Positions 5,124-11,660 of a DNA stretch of 64,000 bases are shown here, piece by piece. The notes under the pieces are model-generated. The model saw nothing but the letters and a program-made list of their open reading frames with translations. It was not told the origin of the DNA and made no database searches. The translations under genes were made by a program, and so were the position numbers. How positions within the stretch are numbered: the first letter of the stretch is position 1; each line of letters starts with the position of its first letter. This DNA comes from Actinomycetota bacterium (GTDB lineage Bacteria; Actinomycetota; UBA4738; HRBIN12). The DNA lies in contig JBBECT010000005.1 in the NCBI GenBank assembly GCA_040881665.1, positions 588,138 to 652,137 of the forward strand. The letters are read 5' to 3'.

Positions 5124-6515
5124 GTGCGCAACGCTCCGCGACCGGTGCTCCTCCTCGGCATGCTCTTGACGGTGCTCGGCCTTGCACTCGCACCGGCGCA
5201 CGCCCAGGAACCCGGCGGCACGGAGACGACGTCGACCGTGCTCGAGCTGCAGATCGACGGCGTCGTGGATCCGTTCGTCGCCGACTACGTGGAGGGGCGG
5301 ATCGACCAGGCCCCGGGACGTGCCGACGCCGTTCTCATCACGATCGACACGCCCGGCGGGCTCGACTCGTCGATGCGTCAGATCGTCCAGGCGATCTCGA
5401 ACACGTCCGTCCCCGTCGTCTGCTACGTCGCTCCCGAGGGCGCGCGGGCCGCGTCCGCGGGCATGTACATCTTACTGTCGTGCCCTGTCGCGGCGATGGC
5501 GCCGGGCACGAACGTCGGTGCGGCGACGCCGGTCGGGCTCTCGGGCGCGATCGCCTCCCAGAAGGCCGTCGAGGACAGCGTCGCGTACGCGCGAGCGCTC
5601 GCAGAGGCGCACGACCGCGACGCCGATTGGGCCGAACAGGCGGTTCGCGACGCGGTGAGCCTGTCCGCCGAGCAAGCGCTGGAGCGCAACGTGATCGACA
5701 TCGTCGCTGCAGACACCACCACCTTGCTCGACGAGATCGACGGAGAACAGGTCGAGGTCGCGGGCGATGCGGTCGTGACCCTGGAAACCGCCGGCGCGCA
5801 GATCACGACCGAGACGCTCGGTCCGTTCATCGGCTTCCTGCACGCGCTGTTGGATCCGAACCTCGCCTTCCTGTTCTTCTGGCTCGGGATCGGACTGATG
5901 ATCCTCGAGTTCTTCCTGCCCCACTTCGGGATCGCCGGCGTGATCGGATTCGTGCTGCTGCTGTTGTCGATCGCCGCCTTCGGCATGCTGCCGGTGCGGC
6001 TCGTCGGGGTGCTGCTGCTGATCGCCTCGGCGGTCCTGCTCGTCCTCGAGATCCATACCCCGGGGTTCGGCGTGTTCGGCATCGGGGGGATCATCGGTCT
6101 CGTCGTCGGCGGCCTTCTGCTGTTCAACGGGCCGGGCGTCCGTGTGTCGCCCGTGCTGATCGTGATCGTCGCCGCGGCGATGGTCGGGTTCTTCGGGTTC
6201 GTGCTCACCGCGGCGATGAAGCTCCGGGGTGCGCCACCGGTCAGCGATCCCGGGGACGTCGTCGGGCGCGAGGGCAAGGCGCTCACGGACCTCGCCCCCA
6301 CGGGCGTGGTCCACGTGCACGGCGAGGAATGGTCCGCGAGCGCTCCGCACGGCGCGCTCTCCAAGGGAACGCGGGTCCGCGTCCTCAGCAAGGAAGGTCT
6401 CCGGCTCGAGGTCGAGCCGGCAGAGTCGTCAGAGTCGCTGACCGGTGAGGCGCACGAGGCGCCCACGACAGACGCGGGAACGGTGGACACCGAGAAGGAG
6501 GGAAGCGCGACGTGA
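5124..6515 (+). CDS. nfeD: NfeD-family membrane serine protease
   Basis: Long-form NfeD protein of about 463 residues. The signal peptide ends AHAQ. A ClpP/crotonase-fold protease domain contains ITIDTPGG and GARAASAGMYILLSC, with the catalytic Ser in the ASAGM motif and a downstream Lys. Several transmembrane helices follow (about residues 235-365), then a C-terminal OB-fold (GREGKALTDLAPTGVVHVHGE). GTG 5124 is preferred over GTG 5073 because it places the signal peptide at the N-terminus and follows a GGTGGGA stretch. Family members cleave the C-terminus of stomatin partners; the SPFH gene overlaps immediately downstream. Confidence 0.92.
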   Translation: MRNAPRPVLLLGMLLTVLGLALAPAHAQEPGGTETTSTVLELQIDGVVDPFVADYVEGRIDQAPGRADAVLITIDTPGGLDSSMRQIVQAISNTSVPVVCYVAPEGARAASAGMYILLSCPVAAMAPGTNVGAATPVGLSGAIASQKAVEDSVAYARALAEAHDRDADWAEQAVRDAVSLSAEQALERNVIDIVAADTTTLLDEIDGEQVEVAGDAVVTLETAGAQITTETLGPFIGFLHALLDPNLAFLFFWLGIGLMILEFFLPHFGIAGVIGFVLLLLSIAAFGMLPVRLVGVLLLIASAVLLVLEIHTPGFGVFGIGGIIGLVVGGLLLFNGPGVRVSPVLIVIVAAAMVGFFGFVLTAAMKLRGAPPVSDPGDVVGREGKALTDLAPTGVVHVHGEEWSASAPHGALSKGTRVRVLSKEGLRLEVEPAESSESLTGEAHEAPTTDAGTVDTEKEGSAT

Positions 6516-7438
6516 TCGGCACCCTGATCGCCGTCGGGATCGTGGTCCTGTTGGTCCTGATCCTGATCGCAAGCGCCGTCAAGATCGTCCCGGAGTACCA
6601 GCGACTGGTGGTCTTCCGACTCGGACGAGCGATCGGAGCGAAAGGGCCGGGACTCGTGCTCCTGATCCCGATCGTCGATCGCCCGGTCCGGGTCGACCTG
6701 CGGGAGTTCTTCCTCGAGATCCCACGGCAGGACTCGATCACGAAGGACAACGCCCCGATCTCGGTCGACTTCATCACCTTCTACCAGGTGGTGAACCCGC
6801 AGGACTCGGTGGTCCGGGTCGCGAACTTCGCGGGCGCGGCGCAGGCTTTGGCCGCGACGACGTTGCGCGCCGTGATCGGCGATATCCCGCTCGACGACGT
6901 GCTCGCGCGTCGTGACGAGATCAACCGGATCCTGCGGACGAAGCTCGACGAGGTCACCGAGCGCTGGGGCGTGAAGGTCACGAACGTCGAGATCCGTGAG
7001 ATCGTTCCGCCGCCGGGCGTCCAGGAGGCGATGACCCGGCAGATGTCGGCCGAACGGACGCGCCGCGCGGTCGTCACCGAGGCCGAGGGACAGAAGCAGG
7101 CCGCGATCACCGTGGCCGAGGGCAACAAGGAGTCGGCGATCATCAACGCGCAGGGATCCCGCGAATCGGCGATCCTGTCCGCCGAGGGCGAACGGCAGGC
7201 CGCGATCCTTCGAGCCGAAGGGTTCTCGCTCGCCCTGCGTACGATCTACGACGTCGCGAGCACGGTCGACGCGAACACGATGAGCCTGCAGTACCTCGAT
7301 GCGCTGAAGGAGCTGGGAGCCTCAGCGTCCACGAAGTTCGTGATCCCGATGGAGTTCGTCTCATTGCTCTCCGGAGTCACCGAGCTCGCCGGCCGGTCGT
7401 TCTCCGACAAGGACGGCGGATCCCCGGCAGGGGGCTAG
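6512..7438 (+). CDS. SPFH/Band 7 (slipin/stomatin-like) membrane protein
   Basis: Stomatin-like protein of 308 residues. One N-terminal transmembrane helix (residues 1-20) is followed by the SPFH domain (VPEYQRLVVFRLGR, GLVLLIPIVDR, TKDNAPISVD) and an Ala/Glu-rich coiled coil with repeated AEG-(E/N) units at about 180-240. It would form a large membrane scaffold and is the usual partner and substrate of NfeD. The GTG overlaps the nfeD stop. The end converges on pilT with both stops inside one CTAG tetranucleotide. Confidence 0.93.
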   Translation: MIGTLIAVGIVVLLVLILIASAVKIVPEYQRLVVFRLGRAIGAKGPGLVLLIPIVDRPVRVDLREFFLEIPRQDSITKDNAPISVDFITFYQVVNPQDSVVRVANFAGAAQALAATTLRAVIGDIPLDDVLARRDEINRILRTKLDEVTERWGVKVTNVEIREIVPPPGVQEAMTRQMSAERTRRAVVTEAEGQKQAAITVAEGNKESAIINAQGSRESAILSAEGERQAAILRAEGFSLALRTIYDVASTVDANTMSLQYLDALKELGASASTKFVIPMEFVSLLSGVTELAGRSFSDKDGGSPAGG

Positions 7439-8877
7439 ACGCCGCGAGCGTCTTCGGGGATCTCGATGCCGGCTTGCTGCAGCTCGAGCTTGAAGTCGTG
7501 CGGGGAGGAGGCGGCTTCGAGCGCCTCCTCAACGGAGACCTTGCCGTCGATCACGAGCTGCAGGAGCGACTGGTCGAAGGTCTGCATCCCGTAGTAGCCG
7601 CCGTCCTTGATCACGTCGTGGATCTCGTGGGTCTTGTCGGCGTCGGAGATGCGCTCGGCGACGCGGCCGGTGTTCACGAGGATCTCCAGGGAGGGAACCC
7701 GGCCGCCGTCGACGGTCGGAACGAGCCGCTGGCACACGATGCCGCGCAGTGCCCCGGCGATCGTGAGCCGGATCTGCTTCTGCTGATAGGGCGGGAAGAA
7801 GTCGATGCAACGGTTCACCGTCTCCGTCGCGTCAACGGTGTGCAGCGTGGAAAGGACCAGGTGACCGGTCTCCGCCGCCTGAAGGGCCGCACGGACCGTC
7901 TCGGTGTCGCGCATCTCCCCGATCAGGATCACGTCGGGGTCTTGGCGGAGCGCGGCGCGCAGGGCGGTCAGGAACGATCCGGTGTCCTGACCCACTTCAC
8001 GCTGGTTGATCGATGCCACATCGTCCCGGTGGAGGACCTCGATCGGGTCCTCGACCGTGACGATGTGCACCGGCTTCGTTCGGTTCAGGTAGTCGATCAT
8101 TGCCGCGAGCGTCGTCGTCTTCCCCGACCCCGTCGGTCCCGTCACGAGGATCAGACCGCGCGGCTCCTCCGACAGGGTGCGCATCACCTCGGGCAGGCCC
8201 ATCTCGTCGAACGAGGGCCCGCCGAAGCGAAGGCGCCGCAACACCATGCTGACCGAGCTGCGCTGCTTGAACACGTTCACGCGGAACCGGCCGATGCCGG
8301 GCAGGGAGTGGGCGAAGTCCACTTCACCGTTCTCGGCGAACTGCGTCCGGCGATCCTCGGGGATGATCGCGTCCCCGATCGCGGCGGTGTCCTCGGGCGT
8401 GAGCGCCGTGCGGTCGATCTTCCGCAGACGACCGTCGATTCGTAGCATCGGGGGCGAGCCGACCTTCACGTGCAGATCCGATCCTTCGAGATCGGCCACT
8501 TGCTTGAGCCACGAGCTGAACTCTCCGGGAACACCGTCTCCCATCGGCTCGATCTGCGCGATCGGACCCTCGTCGTCGAGGTCGGCGGTCGCCGCCGGCG
8601 ACCGTTCCGTGGGAGCCGGCTCCTCCGCGTCCGGAAGGGGGGACTCCTGGTCCTGCTGCGTGTGAGGAGCGACCGCGTCCGCGATCGGCGCCTTCTCCGA
8701 AGCCGACACACCGGCGGGAGGAACCGGGGGGTCGGCAACAGGAGCCGCCGGTTCCGCGACACCCGCCGCCTCGCCCCATGCGGTCACTGACGGATGCGAC
8801 GCAGCGATCGGCCCCGGGACGCCGTCGCCGGGAGCGACGGCGTCCAGGCGCGGACGTGCTTCATCGGGGTGCTGCAT
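7435..8877 (-). CDS. pilT: PilT-type twitching ATPase with long N-terminal extension
   Basis: Type IV pilus retraction-type ATPase of 480 residues. About 120 extra N-terminal residues, rich in Ala, Pro, Asp and Glu, precede a normal PilT core (PAS-like N-domain, SDLHVKVGSPP; Walker A GPTGSGKTTT; Asp box TVEDPIEVLHRD; Walker B DPDVILIGEMRD; His box TGHLVLSTLHT). The usual length is 340-370. It likely powers pilus retraction or a related secretion ATPase at the inner membrane. No other pilus gene is in the window. The gene begins 15 nt after the stop of the cyclase-fold gene, so the two are probably one operon. Confidence 0.93.
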   Translation of the reverse strand: MQHPDEARPRLDAVAPGDGVPGPIAASHPSVTAWGEAAGVAEPAAPVADPPVPPAGVSASEKAPIADAVAPHTQQDQESPLPDAEEPAPTERSPAATADLDDEGPIAQIEPMGDGVPGEFSSWLKQVADLEGSDLHVKVGSPPMLRIDGRLRKIDRTALTPEDTAAIGDAIIPEDRRTQFAENGEVDFAHSLPGIGRFRVNVFKQRSSVSMVLRRLRFGGPSFDEMGLPEVMRTLSEEPRGLILVTGPTGSGKTTTLAAMIDYLNRTKPVHIVTVEDPIEVLHRDDVASINQREVGQDTGSFLTALRAALRQDPDVILIGEMRDTETVRAALQAAETGHLVLSTLHTVDATETVNRCIDFFPPYQQKQIRLTIAGALRGIVCQRLVPTVDGGRVPSLEILVNTGRVAERISDADKTHEIHDVIKDGGYYGMQTFDQSLLQLVIDGKVSVEEALEAASSPHDFKLELQQAGIEIPEDARGV

Positions 8878-8892
8878 GCAGAACGACTCCCC

Positions 8893-9516
8893 TCACTCGA
8901 CGATCTCTGTGGGATGGGACGCGACCCGCACCCGCCACACCGGAACCGTGCCGATCGATGGATCGATCGTGGTTCGGGCGGCTGCGGTCGCCGACAGCTC
9001 TCCGGCGGCCGTCTCGGCCGCGGCACCGCCGAGCAACAGCTCTCCGGGCCGCGCCAGGTCCCGGAGCCGGTCGGCCACGCGCCACGGCGAGCCGCTCGAA
9101 ACGGCGACCCCCGACGGTATCCGGGCTCGCGTTCCCGTCGCGACCGCCGCCGCGACGGCGACAGATCGCTCGCCGGATCTCTGGGCTTCCCGAACGGCGT
9201 GTGCGATCTCGACCGCCGTATCGGCTGCGCGGATCGCAGCCTCGTCCCCGTGGAACCGGGCTTCGACTACGGGATGCGCGGACGTTCCCGCGAGCGCGAG
9301 GACGCCGCCCGCGCGGCCGGCTACGACGAGGGCAGCGCGGATGCACCGATCGTGGACCTTCCGGCGCACACCGTCGGCCAGGTCCTCCTCGGACACGCCG
9401 GATGCGCCCTCGCGTGGATGGAGCTCCAGCGAGAGCACGGCGATCTCCTCCCGCGGCGCGGGTGCGGCCTCTCGCTGGGCGCGCACGGTGGAGAGCGGGA
9501 TGACGGTCCCGTCCAT
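8893..9516 (-). CDS. Degenerate class III nucleotidyl-cyclase-fold protein
   Basis: Protein of 207 residues resembling an adenylate/guanylate cyclase homology domain. There is a first beta strand (AVLSLEL), an alanine-rich helix with AADTAVEIAHAVREA, a VAVAAAVATGT strand matching the 'GVATG' region, and ADRLRDLARPGELLLGG matching the 'AARLQ...PGEILVS' region. The first metal Asp is absent (LSLEL) and the position of the substrate-binding Asn near VADRL is not Asn, so catalysis is unlikely. Lying 15 nt before pilT, it may act as a regulatory or protein-interaction module. The fold assignment is by eye and moderate. Confidence 0.6.
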   Translation of the reverse strand: MDGTVIPLSTVRAQREAAPAPREEIAVLSLELHPREGASGVSEEDLADGVRRKVHDRCIRAALVVAGRAGGVLALAGTSAHPVVEARFHGDEAAIRAADTAVEIAHAVREAQRSGERSVAVAAAVATGTRARIPSGVAVSSGSPWRVADRLRDLARPGELLLGGAAAETAAGELSATAAARTTIDPSIGTVPVWRVRVASHPTEIVE

Positions 9517-9650: not shown

Positions 9651-10334
9651 TCAGCTCGGACGAGCGGTCCCGGCCGTCAGCCGGCACGTGGCTCGATCCG
9701 TGAGCGGTTCATAGGAGCTCATCTGCAGCGGAGGACGAACCTCGGCGAGCATCCCTTCCATCAACCCTCGGTGCACCTCGCACACGAGCGCTCGATGTTC
9801 GTCCAGCAGGTCGCGGAACGGACAGTCGCGCATCGTGATCACAACCGTTCCCCCACCGGTCCGCCGGAAGCGCGGCTCGAACCCGGCGCGATCCATCGCC
9901 TCCCGGAGGGTGGCGAGGTTGCGTCCCGCCGGGGTCCGCGCCCCGGGTTTGGGCGCATCCCGCGCCACGAGATAGGCGCCCCACTCTCGGGCCAGGGTCG
10001 CCGCTCGGATGCGCTGACGTTCGCCCGAGACGACCCCGGCCAGGATCTCGGCGAGCAGGCGCCAGTCGCGGCCTTCGTGGGCTTGCTGTTCGACGACCTC
10101 GTACACCGCCTGGGGACGTCCCGCGCCGGTCCCGCGGTGGGTGTCCCGGAGGACGAGACCGACCTCCTCGAGACGTCGCAGGTGGGGGCGGATCGTGTTC
10201 GGATGCAGCGAGAGCCGGGCGGCGAGCTCACGGACGGTCACCGGACGTCCGGAGAGCCGGAGGTAGCGGTACAGGCGGAAGCGCGTGTCGTCGGCGAGCG
10301 CCTTGTGGACCTCGATCGAGCCCGCGTCGGTCAT
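9651..10334 (-). CDS. SufR-like helix-turn-helix regulator with C-terminal cysteine cluster
   Basis: Regulator of 227 residues. An N-terminal winged HTH (residues 8-70; HKALADDTRFRLYRYL, then LAARLSLHPNTIRPHLRRLEEVGLV) precedes a C-terminal region with Cys in MRDCPFRDLL, a second Cys 13 residues later (ALVCEVHRG) and a third in ATCRL. That spacing resembles the Fe-S ligand pattern of SufR-type repressors. Start ATG 10334 follows AGGAGGAACGGT. It is divergent from mrp/apbC, an Fe-S carrier, which supports an Fe-S sensing role. A general ArsR/DeoR-type regulator is the alternative. Confidence 0.82.
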   Translation of the reverse strand: MTDAGSIEVHKALADDTRFRLYRYLRLSGRPVTVRELAARLSLHPNTIRPHLRRLEEVGLVLRDTHRGTGAGRPQAVYEVVEQQAHEGRDWRLLAEILAGVVSGERQRIRAATLAREWGAYLVARDAPKPGARTPAGRNLATLREAMDRAGFEPRFRRTGGGTVVITMRDCPFRDLLDEHRALVCEVHRGLMEGMLAEVRPPLQMSSYEPLTDRATCRLTAGTARPS

Positions 10335-10422: not shown

Positions 10423-10526
10423 CCCCACCGTGGCGACCAGGGTAACCACAGCGGCGCGCTCAGGATCATCGCGTGCGTGTTCCCGGTTCGGCACGGCCGA
10501 TCCCCGACGGCGGCAGAGGTGACCAG

Positions 10527-11660
10527 GTGACGACGGTCGAACAGGTCCGCGAGGCGCTCCGGCAGGTGCTCGACCCCGAGATCGGCAAGCCGATCGAGGA
10601 TCTCGGGATGCTCGAAAGCGTCCGGATCGACGGTGCCACCGTGTACGTCCACGTCCTGTTGACGATCGCCGGATGCCCGCTGCGCGAAACGATCACCAAC
10701 GACGTGAACGCGGCCGTTCGCCCGCTCGACGGCGTCGAGGACGTTCGGCTCGAGCTCACCCCGATGAGCGAGCAGCAACGCGCCGAGCTCGTCGGCAAGC
10801 TCCGCGGACCGGGCGCCGCCGCGCCGCAGCAACAACGAACCTTCTTCACGGGATCGGACACGACGGTGATCGCCGTCGCCTCCGGCAAGGGCGGGGTGGG
10901 CAAGTCCAGCGTCACGGTGAACCTCGCCGCGGCGATGGCCGCCGACGGACTCAACGTGGGTGTCCTCGACGCCGACGTCTGGGGCTTCTCGGTCCCCCGG
11001 ATGTTGGGCGTGTCCGGCAAACCCGTGGGATTCAACGACATGATCCTTCCCCTCGAGGCCCACGGCGTGAAGGTCATCTCCATGGGCTTCTTCGTCCCCG
11101 AGGAAACCCCCGTGATCTGGCGCGGGCCGATGCTGCACAAGGCGATCGAGCAGTTCCTCGGCGACGTCTACTGGGGGGATCTCGACGTGCTGCTGGCCGA
11201 CCTGCCGCCGGGGACCGGCGACGTGTCGATCTCGCTCGCGTCGTTCCTGCCGGGAGCCCAGATGCTCGTCGTGACCACGCCTCAGGAGGCCGCCCGCAAG
11301 GTGGCCGAGCGCGCGGGCAAGATGGCGGAGCGCACGAACCTCAAGCCCGTGGGTGTCGTGGAGAACATGAGCTACTACACGTGCCCGCATTGCGGCGAGC
11401 GCGAGGAGGTGTTCGGTTCCGGCGGCGGCGCGGAGGCCGCGAAGACGCTTCGGGTGCCCCTGCTCGCGCAGGTGCCACTCGTGCCGGCGCTGCGACAGGG
11501 CGGGGACGAGGGCTTGCCGATCGTGGTCCGCGATCCGGAAGCTCCGGCGAGCGTGGCACTGACCGAGGCGGCACGAGCCCTGCACCGCGCGTCGAAGAGC
11601 AAGGTCGGCAAACCGCTGACGCTGATGACGGGTCCCGCGGCGGCCGGTCACGTCCACTAG
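10527..11660 (+). CDS. apbC: Mrp/ApbC P-loop iron-sulfur carrier ATPase
   Basis: Mrp/NBP35-family ATPase of 377 residues. An N-terminal MIP18/DUF59 domain (residues 1-80; VLDPEIGKPIEDLGML) precedes the deviant Walker A GKGGVGKSSVTVNLA, switch motifs DADVWGFS and PPGTGDVSIS, and a C-terminal CxxC (YYTCPHCGE) that bridges the labile cluster in the dimer. It loads Fe-S clusters onto apo-proteins in the cytoplasm. GTG 10527 was chosen over GTG 10473 because AGAGGTGA precedes it at good spacing and DUF59 begins directly after it. It is divergent from the SufR-like regulator. Confidence 0.95.
   Translation: MTTVEQVREALRQVLDPEIGKPIEDLGMLESVRIDGATVYVHVLLTIAGCPLRETITNDVNAAVRPLDGVEDVRLELTPMSEQQRAELVGKLRGPGAAAPQQQRTFFTGSDTTVIAVASGKGGVGKSSVTVNLAAAMAADGLNVGVLDADVWGFSVPRMLGVSGKPVGFNDMILPLEAHGVKVISMGFFVPEETPVIWRGPMLHKAIEQFLGDVYWGDLDVLLADLPPGTGDVSISLASFLPGAQMLVVTTPQEAARKVAERAGKMAERTNLKPVGVVENMSYYTCPHCGEREEVFGSGGGAEAAKTLRVPLLAQVPLVPALRQGGDEGLPIVVRDPEAPASVALTEAARALHRASKSKVGKPLTLMTGPAAAGHVH

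Follow-up and report, generated by a model that had tools for sequence, protein, structure and literature searches.

We analysed a stretch of 64,000 nucleotides (nt) from an Actinomycetota bacterium (contig JBBECT010000005.1, positions 588,138 to 652,137; G000:C5:588138-652137 in our numbering of genomes and contigs), hereafter the window, which belongs to a genome (G000) of 2.46 Mb that is 96% complete. The subject is a pair of genes on its minus strand, in which a small protein homologous to class III nucleotide cyclases (CYC) is encoded immediately upstream from an ATPase of the PilT type (PilT-2). The class to which G000 belongs was represented by 27 genomes from one order and four families. 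The pair consists of the following features:

8893..9516, minus strand: CYC, a 207-aa stand-alone protein with class III cyclase homology, predicted to be non-catalytic.
7435..8877, minus strand: PilT-2, a 480-aa ATPase of the PilT/PilU family (TIGR01420, 460 bits).
8524..8877, minus strand: N-terminal tail of PilT-2, 118 residues, acidic and Pro/Ala-rich.
8887..8892, minus strand: Shine-Dalgarno-like GGGGAG, read from the sequence, between the CYC stop and the PilT-2 start.

The stop codon of CYC (TGA, 8895-8893) is separated from the ATG of PilT-2 (8877) by 15 nt, within which GGGGAG lies, and both open reading frames (ORFs) and their spacing are as given by a first reading of this DNA made from its letters (the sequence-only reading). 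A promoter/terminator scan found no promoter-like sites at the locus and a single terminator-like site, on the opposite strand and near chance level.

The sequence-only reading had described the 8893-9516 product as a degenerate class III cyclase-like domain and had proposed structure prediction as a check; profile matches, predicted structures and the replacement of catalytic residues all uphold this description. Precisely, the NCBIfam model TIGR03903 matched four of the five members of the CYC family (E-values from 1.5e-7 to 1.5e-4), in the cyclase region only and with scores far below the model's whole-protein cut-off, and a profile of four members reached ordinary class III cyclases with E-values down to 1.8e-24. 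A Pfam scan of CYC gave no match, PF00211 included, a sequence search of the PDB gave chance-level matches only, and neither a GGDEF/EAL nor a PilZ domain was found in the Pfam and NCBIfam scans. AlphaFold models, of moderate confidence and based on input alignments just three sequences deep, reached a predicted local distance difference test (pLDDT) score of 66.8 for the window CYC (the best of five, the others being at 42-51) and of 74.6 for its ortholog in the genome G017, whose core was mostly at 71-95. Nucleotide cyclases were found throughout among the Foldseek matches listed for both models (E-values of 3.4e-9 and 4.1e-10, respectively). With VIA, the window CYC was aligned to CyaB over 176 residues (Z 19.6, rmsd 5.3) and the G017 ortholog to Cya2 over 166 residues (Z 16.9, rmsd 3.5). 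CYC is predicted to have the class III cyclase fold, with a homology that goes beyond chance, and we regard this identity as solid.

Class III cyclases use two metal-binding Asp residues, a transition-state Asn and a transition-state Arg for catalysis. In the window CYC the first three are replaced by Glu31, Thr78 and Arg146, respectively, while Arg150 is retained. We compared the five family members with 22 cyclase domains, which are matches of the CYC family profile and hence biased to good matches. The first metal Asp is Glu in 5/5 family members, the second is Thr in four and Glu in one, and both are Asp in 22/22 comparison domains; the Asn is replaced in 5/5 and present in 20/22 of the comparison domains, and the Arg is retained in all the members and all the comparison domains. 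As both metal-binding Asp and the Asn are replaced in the whole family, CYC looks catalytically dead; we consider this degeneracy solid, and no cyclic nucleotide should be expected from the protein. Since its metal-binding residues are gone, the nucleotide-responsive control that the sequence-only reading had suggested for CYC is unproven.

The CYC family comprises three orthologs (window, G017 and G063), all from metagenome-assembled genomes named 'Actinomycetota bacterium', and a pair of paralogs (G000:C5:580.7k and G017:C210). The orthologs are intact ORFs with 33-44% identity and 42 invariant columns, and in all three the loop preceding the Asn/Arg motif is shortened. CYC begins with a short VIxFPxxR-like segment and has no sensor domain. 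The paralogs (L098:8703-9416 in G000 and L099:4907-5677 in G017) are a second stand-alone degenerate cyclase that shares the VIxFPxxR-like segment; they adjoin not PilT but an NADH-dehydrogenase-like gene, named by eye. At ortholog level CYC occurs in 2 of the 27 genomes of the class. A database search with the window CYC alone gave no match and, with an alignment of the three orthologs, only the two known ones, the sensitivity of this search being limited and its patterns few.

A dead domain of this kind could still act on cyclic-nucleotide output, as the silent half of a heterodimer with a catalytic partner, similarly to the mammalian C1/C2 arrangement, in which one half carries both metal Asp and the other the Asn and the Arg. 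The retained fold, the transition-state Arg in 5/5 members, the 11 PF00211 matches in G000 and the intact-looking cyclase gene that converges with a PilT gene in G063 speak for it. However, CYC lacks the Asn too, unlike the C1/C2 division, all three orthologs have a shortened loop ahead of the Asn/Arg motif and no catalytic cyclase gene lies at the locus, so that we consider this role very unlikely.

As regards its neighbour, PilT-2 clears the TIGR01420 cut-off (460.4 versus 319.1 bits), and in an alignment of the paralogs its motifs are intact (GPTGSGKTTT, VILIGEMRD, EDPIE and STLHT). These correspond to the Walker A and Walker B motifs and to the conserved Asp and His boxes of such ATPases. 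By these sequence features PilT-2 is a true PilT/PilU-family ATPase. It is one of four PilT genes in G000, the others being at C4:308k, at C4:708k and in an operon at C6. The extension of about 120 acidic, Pro/Ala-rich residues that had been noticed in PilT-2 is real: its 118 residues include 24 Ala, 22 Pro, 21 Asp+Glu and 4 Lys+Arg, and of the six frames it is this one that codon usage favours. Among the 24 PilT-2 loci read, of which one (L121) has an unreadable start, this tail occurs in the window only; most orthologs probably start 2-25 residues ahead of the core, and several have long open upstream frames with no start supported by eye.

The sequence-only reading had seen no pilus genes nearby, which holds for the locus; G000 does have a type IV pilus operon on another contig (C6), in the order PilB-PilT-PilC-pilin-like-prepilin peptidase. 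We considered as PilT-2 any gene with at least 60% identity or with linkage to the regulator gene HTH described below, and found it in 21/27 genomes of the class. PilB was found in 18/27, plus G008, where it is in frameshifted pieces, and it accompanies PilT-2 in 17 of the 21 genomes (one frameshifted). The remaining four (G014, G019, G020 and G022) have neither PilB nor PilC; they are 81-87% complete, and the missing sequence is enough to explain these absences. No PilT, PilB or PilC was found in G002, G012, G023 and G025; G002 is 96% complete and retains the Mrp/HTH and SPFH/NfeD genes. In G005 and G009 PilB is present and PilT-2 was not found, the HTH locus running into a contig edge. A first impression that G008 was devoid of PilB was overturned by the locus L126 (G008:C1:320000-338000), where PilB and PilC can be read only by switching between several frames, which looks like frameshifting or decay.

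The presence of PilT-2 together with PilB and PilC is consistent with a role in pilus retraction. The idea that PilT-2 serves another machine, which the sequence-only reading had offered as its second option, was considered and set aside as a leading idea: it is not supported, because a pilus operon exists in G000 and the pilus-less relatives lack PilT-2.

The genes around the pair are the following:

9651..10334, minus strand: HTH, a winged-helix regulator of the HTH_20/ArsR type with three conserved Cys.
10473..11660, plus strand: Mrp/ApbC-type iron-sulfur carrier ATPase, divergent from HTH.
6512..7438, plus strand: SPFH/Band 7 protein, convergent with PilT-2 and overlapping its stop by 4 nt.
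5328..6419, plus strand: NfeD-like partner of the SPFH protein, its extent being that of the tblastn match.

The last gene is presumably NfeD-like. The three Cys of HTH are present in every ortholog covering them; we regard HTH as a candidate metal or iron-sulfur sensor, and its score against the SufR model TIGR02702 is below cut-off (27.8 versus 178.8 bits, in the HTH part only).

HTH adjoins PilT-2 in 14 genomes (the window, G017, the 11 loci L101-L111, and G004 at L167), and CYC lies between them in two of these, the window and G017, which belongs to another family of the order and has CYC and PilT-2 in the same order. HTH is directly upstream from CYC, on the same strand, in 3/3 orthologs, with gaps of about 134 nt (window), 71 and 53 nt, whereas PilT adjoins CYC in 2/3. 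The pairing of CYC with PilT-2 is real but patchy, and these loci indicate that it is not generally conserved. A search for conserved pairing with pilT had been proposed as a check, and it went against the pair, with 2/14 HTH-PilT-2 genomes and a third CYC ortholog that has no PilT beside it. Of the two outcomes that the sequence-only reading had named as counting against itself, no cyclase fold and an unconserved pair, the second was found, since CYC and PilT are not generally paired.

The better conserved neighbour relation is that with HTH, and a strong rival explanation follows it: CYC would be the partner of the regulator upstream, beside Mrp, modulating HTH or sensing the same signal, and PilT-2 would be a later arrival. 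The HTH-CYC order extends to G063, a genome of another class without PilT at this locus, the Mrp/HTH ... SPFH frame persists where PilT and CYC are both missing (G002 and G023), and the three Cys of HTH are conserved as said above. On the other hand, 12/14 HTH-PilT-2 loci do without CYC, which makes CYC dispensable to HTH; the HTH-CYC gaps of 53-134 nt are looser than that between CYC and PilT-2 in the window, and a second linkage of a degenerate cyclase to a PilT gene, described below, would be left unexplained. We hold this partnership to be somewhat doubtful, its standing as a rival notwithstanding.

The slot between HTH and SPFH varies by genome, and holds either PilT or, named by eye, cupredoxin-, sigma-factor- or beta-propeller-like genes. 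In the pilus-less G002 (L163, G002:C1:44000-56000), cupredoxin- and sigma-factor-like genes (by eye) stand in the place of PilT. As to a horizontal or vertical origin of CYC, trees of HTH+Mrp+SPFH, of HTH and of PilT-2 place G000 differently, with weak support. Such a slot might retain CYC sporadically as a passenger, close to PilT without any function in it; the variable contents, the presence of CYC orthologs in just 2/27 genomes of the class and the abundance of class III cyclase genes (from 2 to 46 PF00211 matches per genome in 12 genomes), owing to which chance neighbours of PilT are expected, agree with this. The fact that CYC is intact in three lineages, with 42 invariant columns at 33-44% identity, points instead to selection on it, and CYC ahead of PilT-2 in two families together with the second linkage exceeds the approximately 0.8 cases expected by chance. 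A mere passenger is, in our judgement, rather unlikely.

The second linkage involves another PilT gene of G000, PilT-4 (G000:C4:708k), which ends in an ATGA shared with the start of the next gene (a 4-nt overlap):

L037:8275-13370 (G000:C4:708.3k-713.4k): PilT-4 and the gene of a Zn-ribbon/degenerate-cyclase/AAA/TPR protein.

This neighbour, of 1326 aa, combines a Zn ribbon and a degenerate cyclase domain with AAA_16 and TPR. G004 (L195) and G009 (L197) have the two genes in the same order, separated by 4 and 6 nt as measured to the first in-frame start codon (a later start being possible in G009), and their PilT-4 proteins share 75 and 77% identity with that of G000. All three linked cyclase domains lack the second Asp and the Asn, and two have Glu in place of the first Asp; the domain of G000 aligns poorly. 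At the same locus (L037:13627-16245), an intein with a LAGLIDADG domain interrupts a DnaB helicase gene.

We then considered all the distinct PilT loci of the class, after merging duplicate or split ones; several end at contig edges, and operonic PilT genes were included for G000 and G008 only. A cyclase-domain gene lies within 1 kb in 5/51 of them (the window, G017 and the three PilT-4 loci), and the chance expectation for 51 PilT genes is about 0.8, a rough value obtained from PF00211 densities. This excess over chance is suggestive only, because the five cases amount to two independent arrangements and it was the first PilT-4 case that prompted the survey. In a further set of out-of-class loci, 1/3 PilT loci had a cyclase gene within 1 kb (G063). 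There (L199, G063:C123), the PilT gene and an intact-looking cyclase-domain gene are convergent and about 20 nt apart.

We favour, tentatively and at less than even confidence, the reading in which CYC is a pseudo-cyclase that serves a spare retraction motor, PilT-2, as an accessory protein, on account of the tight 15-nt spacing and of the parallel PilT-4 case. A pseudo-enzyme of class III cyclase fold would be encoded together with a spare motor of PilT type belonging to the cell's type IV pilus; CYC, alone or as a dimer, would bind PilT-2, perhaps through the acidic tail specific to the window, and would tune the assembly, the docking or the ATPase cycle of the motor. Co-transcription, physical contact, an effect on retraction and a role of the tail are all things we infer. 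Control of retraction, as the sequence-only reading had it, may still apply, two different PilT paralogs of G000 being tightly linked to non-catalytic cyclase domains, but the pair is not generally conserved.

Several observations weigh against the accessory-protein reading. CYC is missing from 12/14 genomes in which HTH and PilT-2 are neighbours, and none was found in the PilT-2 loci surveyed of families f3 and f4. In G063 CYC stands behind HTH at a locus devoid of PilT, the PilT genes being elsewhere, and in G017 CYC and PilT-2 are about 0.9 kb apart, with a SnoaL-like ORF between them. The tail is unique to the G000 genome and hence cannot explain a general pairing. The five in-class cases reduce to just two independent arrangements, in a survey that was itself prompted by the first PilT-4 neighbour, and a cyclase neighbour was found at 0/53 PilT genes surveyed in 53 other genomes of the phylum, 13 of these loci being covered by 1.5-kb flanks only. 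The broader proposal that degenerate class III cyclases were recruited at least twice in one Actinomycetota class as PilT partners (CYC with PilT-2, and the Zn-ribbon/AAA/TPR protein with PilT-4) is an unlikely one.

CYC resembles the class III adenylate/guanylate cyclases (Cya2, 2w01; P. aeruginosa CyaB, 3r5g; M. tuberculosis Rv1900c, 1ybu) in whole-domain fold, profile homology and the Arg, and differs from them in that other residues stand in for the two metal Asp and the Asn, a sensor domain is lacking and the loop ahead of the Asn/Arg motif is shortened. Actinobacterial cyclase-AAA fusions, among them the Mclx proteins of M. tuberculosis with a LuxR domain, have been described (PMC4452763); CYC has the same cyclase homology domain, and the PilT-4 neighbour in G000 is a similar fusion with a Zn ribbon and TPR, whereas CYC is stand-alone with its short VIxFPxxR-like N-terminal segment. 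FimX/PilZ effectors act on the extension motor PilB, an interaction that was demonstrated (PMC11656802). The analogy would be that of a relative of second-messenger proteins that lacks the enzyme activity and binds a pilus motor; there the folds are EAL/GGDEF and PilZ and the motor is that of extension, while for CYC the interaction is only proposed. PilU is a PilT-dependent second retraction ATPase (PMC6762196), and PilT-2 would be like it in being an extra PilT-family ATPase in a cell with another PilT, unlike it in lying apart, at a locus that it shares with CYC and HTH. No report of a cyclase-like protein paired with PilT was found in the titles and abstracts searched, most subscription journals being outside their coverage.

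Regulators of PilB are known, and the control of extra retraction ATPases is less clear. If CYC does bind PilT-2, the partnership of a pseudo-cyclase with a PilT paralog would add a new type of protein to the partners of such motors and give a use to the degenerate cyclase domains of Actinomycetota; recruitment on two occasions would make pseudo-cyclases a new route of motor control. Even as a mere passenger, CYC would still document a small family of dead cyclases that stand alone. CYC and PilT-2 thus form a testable pair, a lead on motor control rather than a proven control system.
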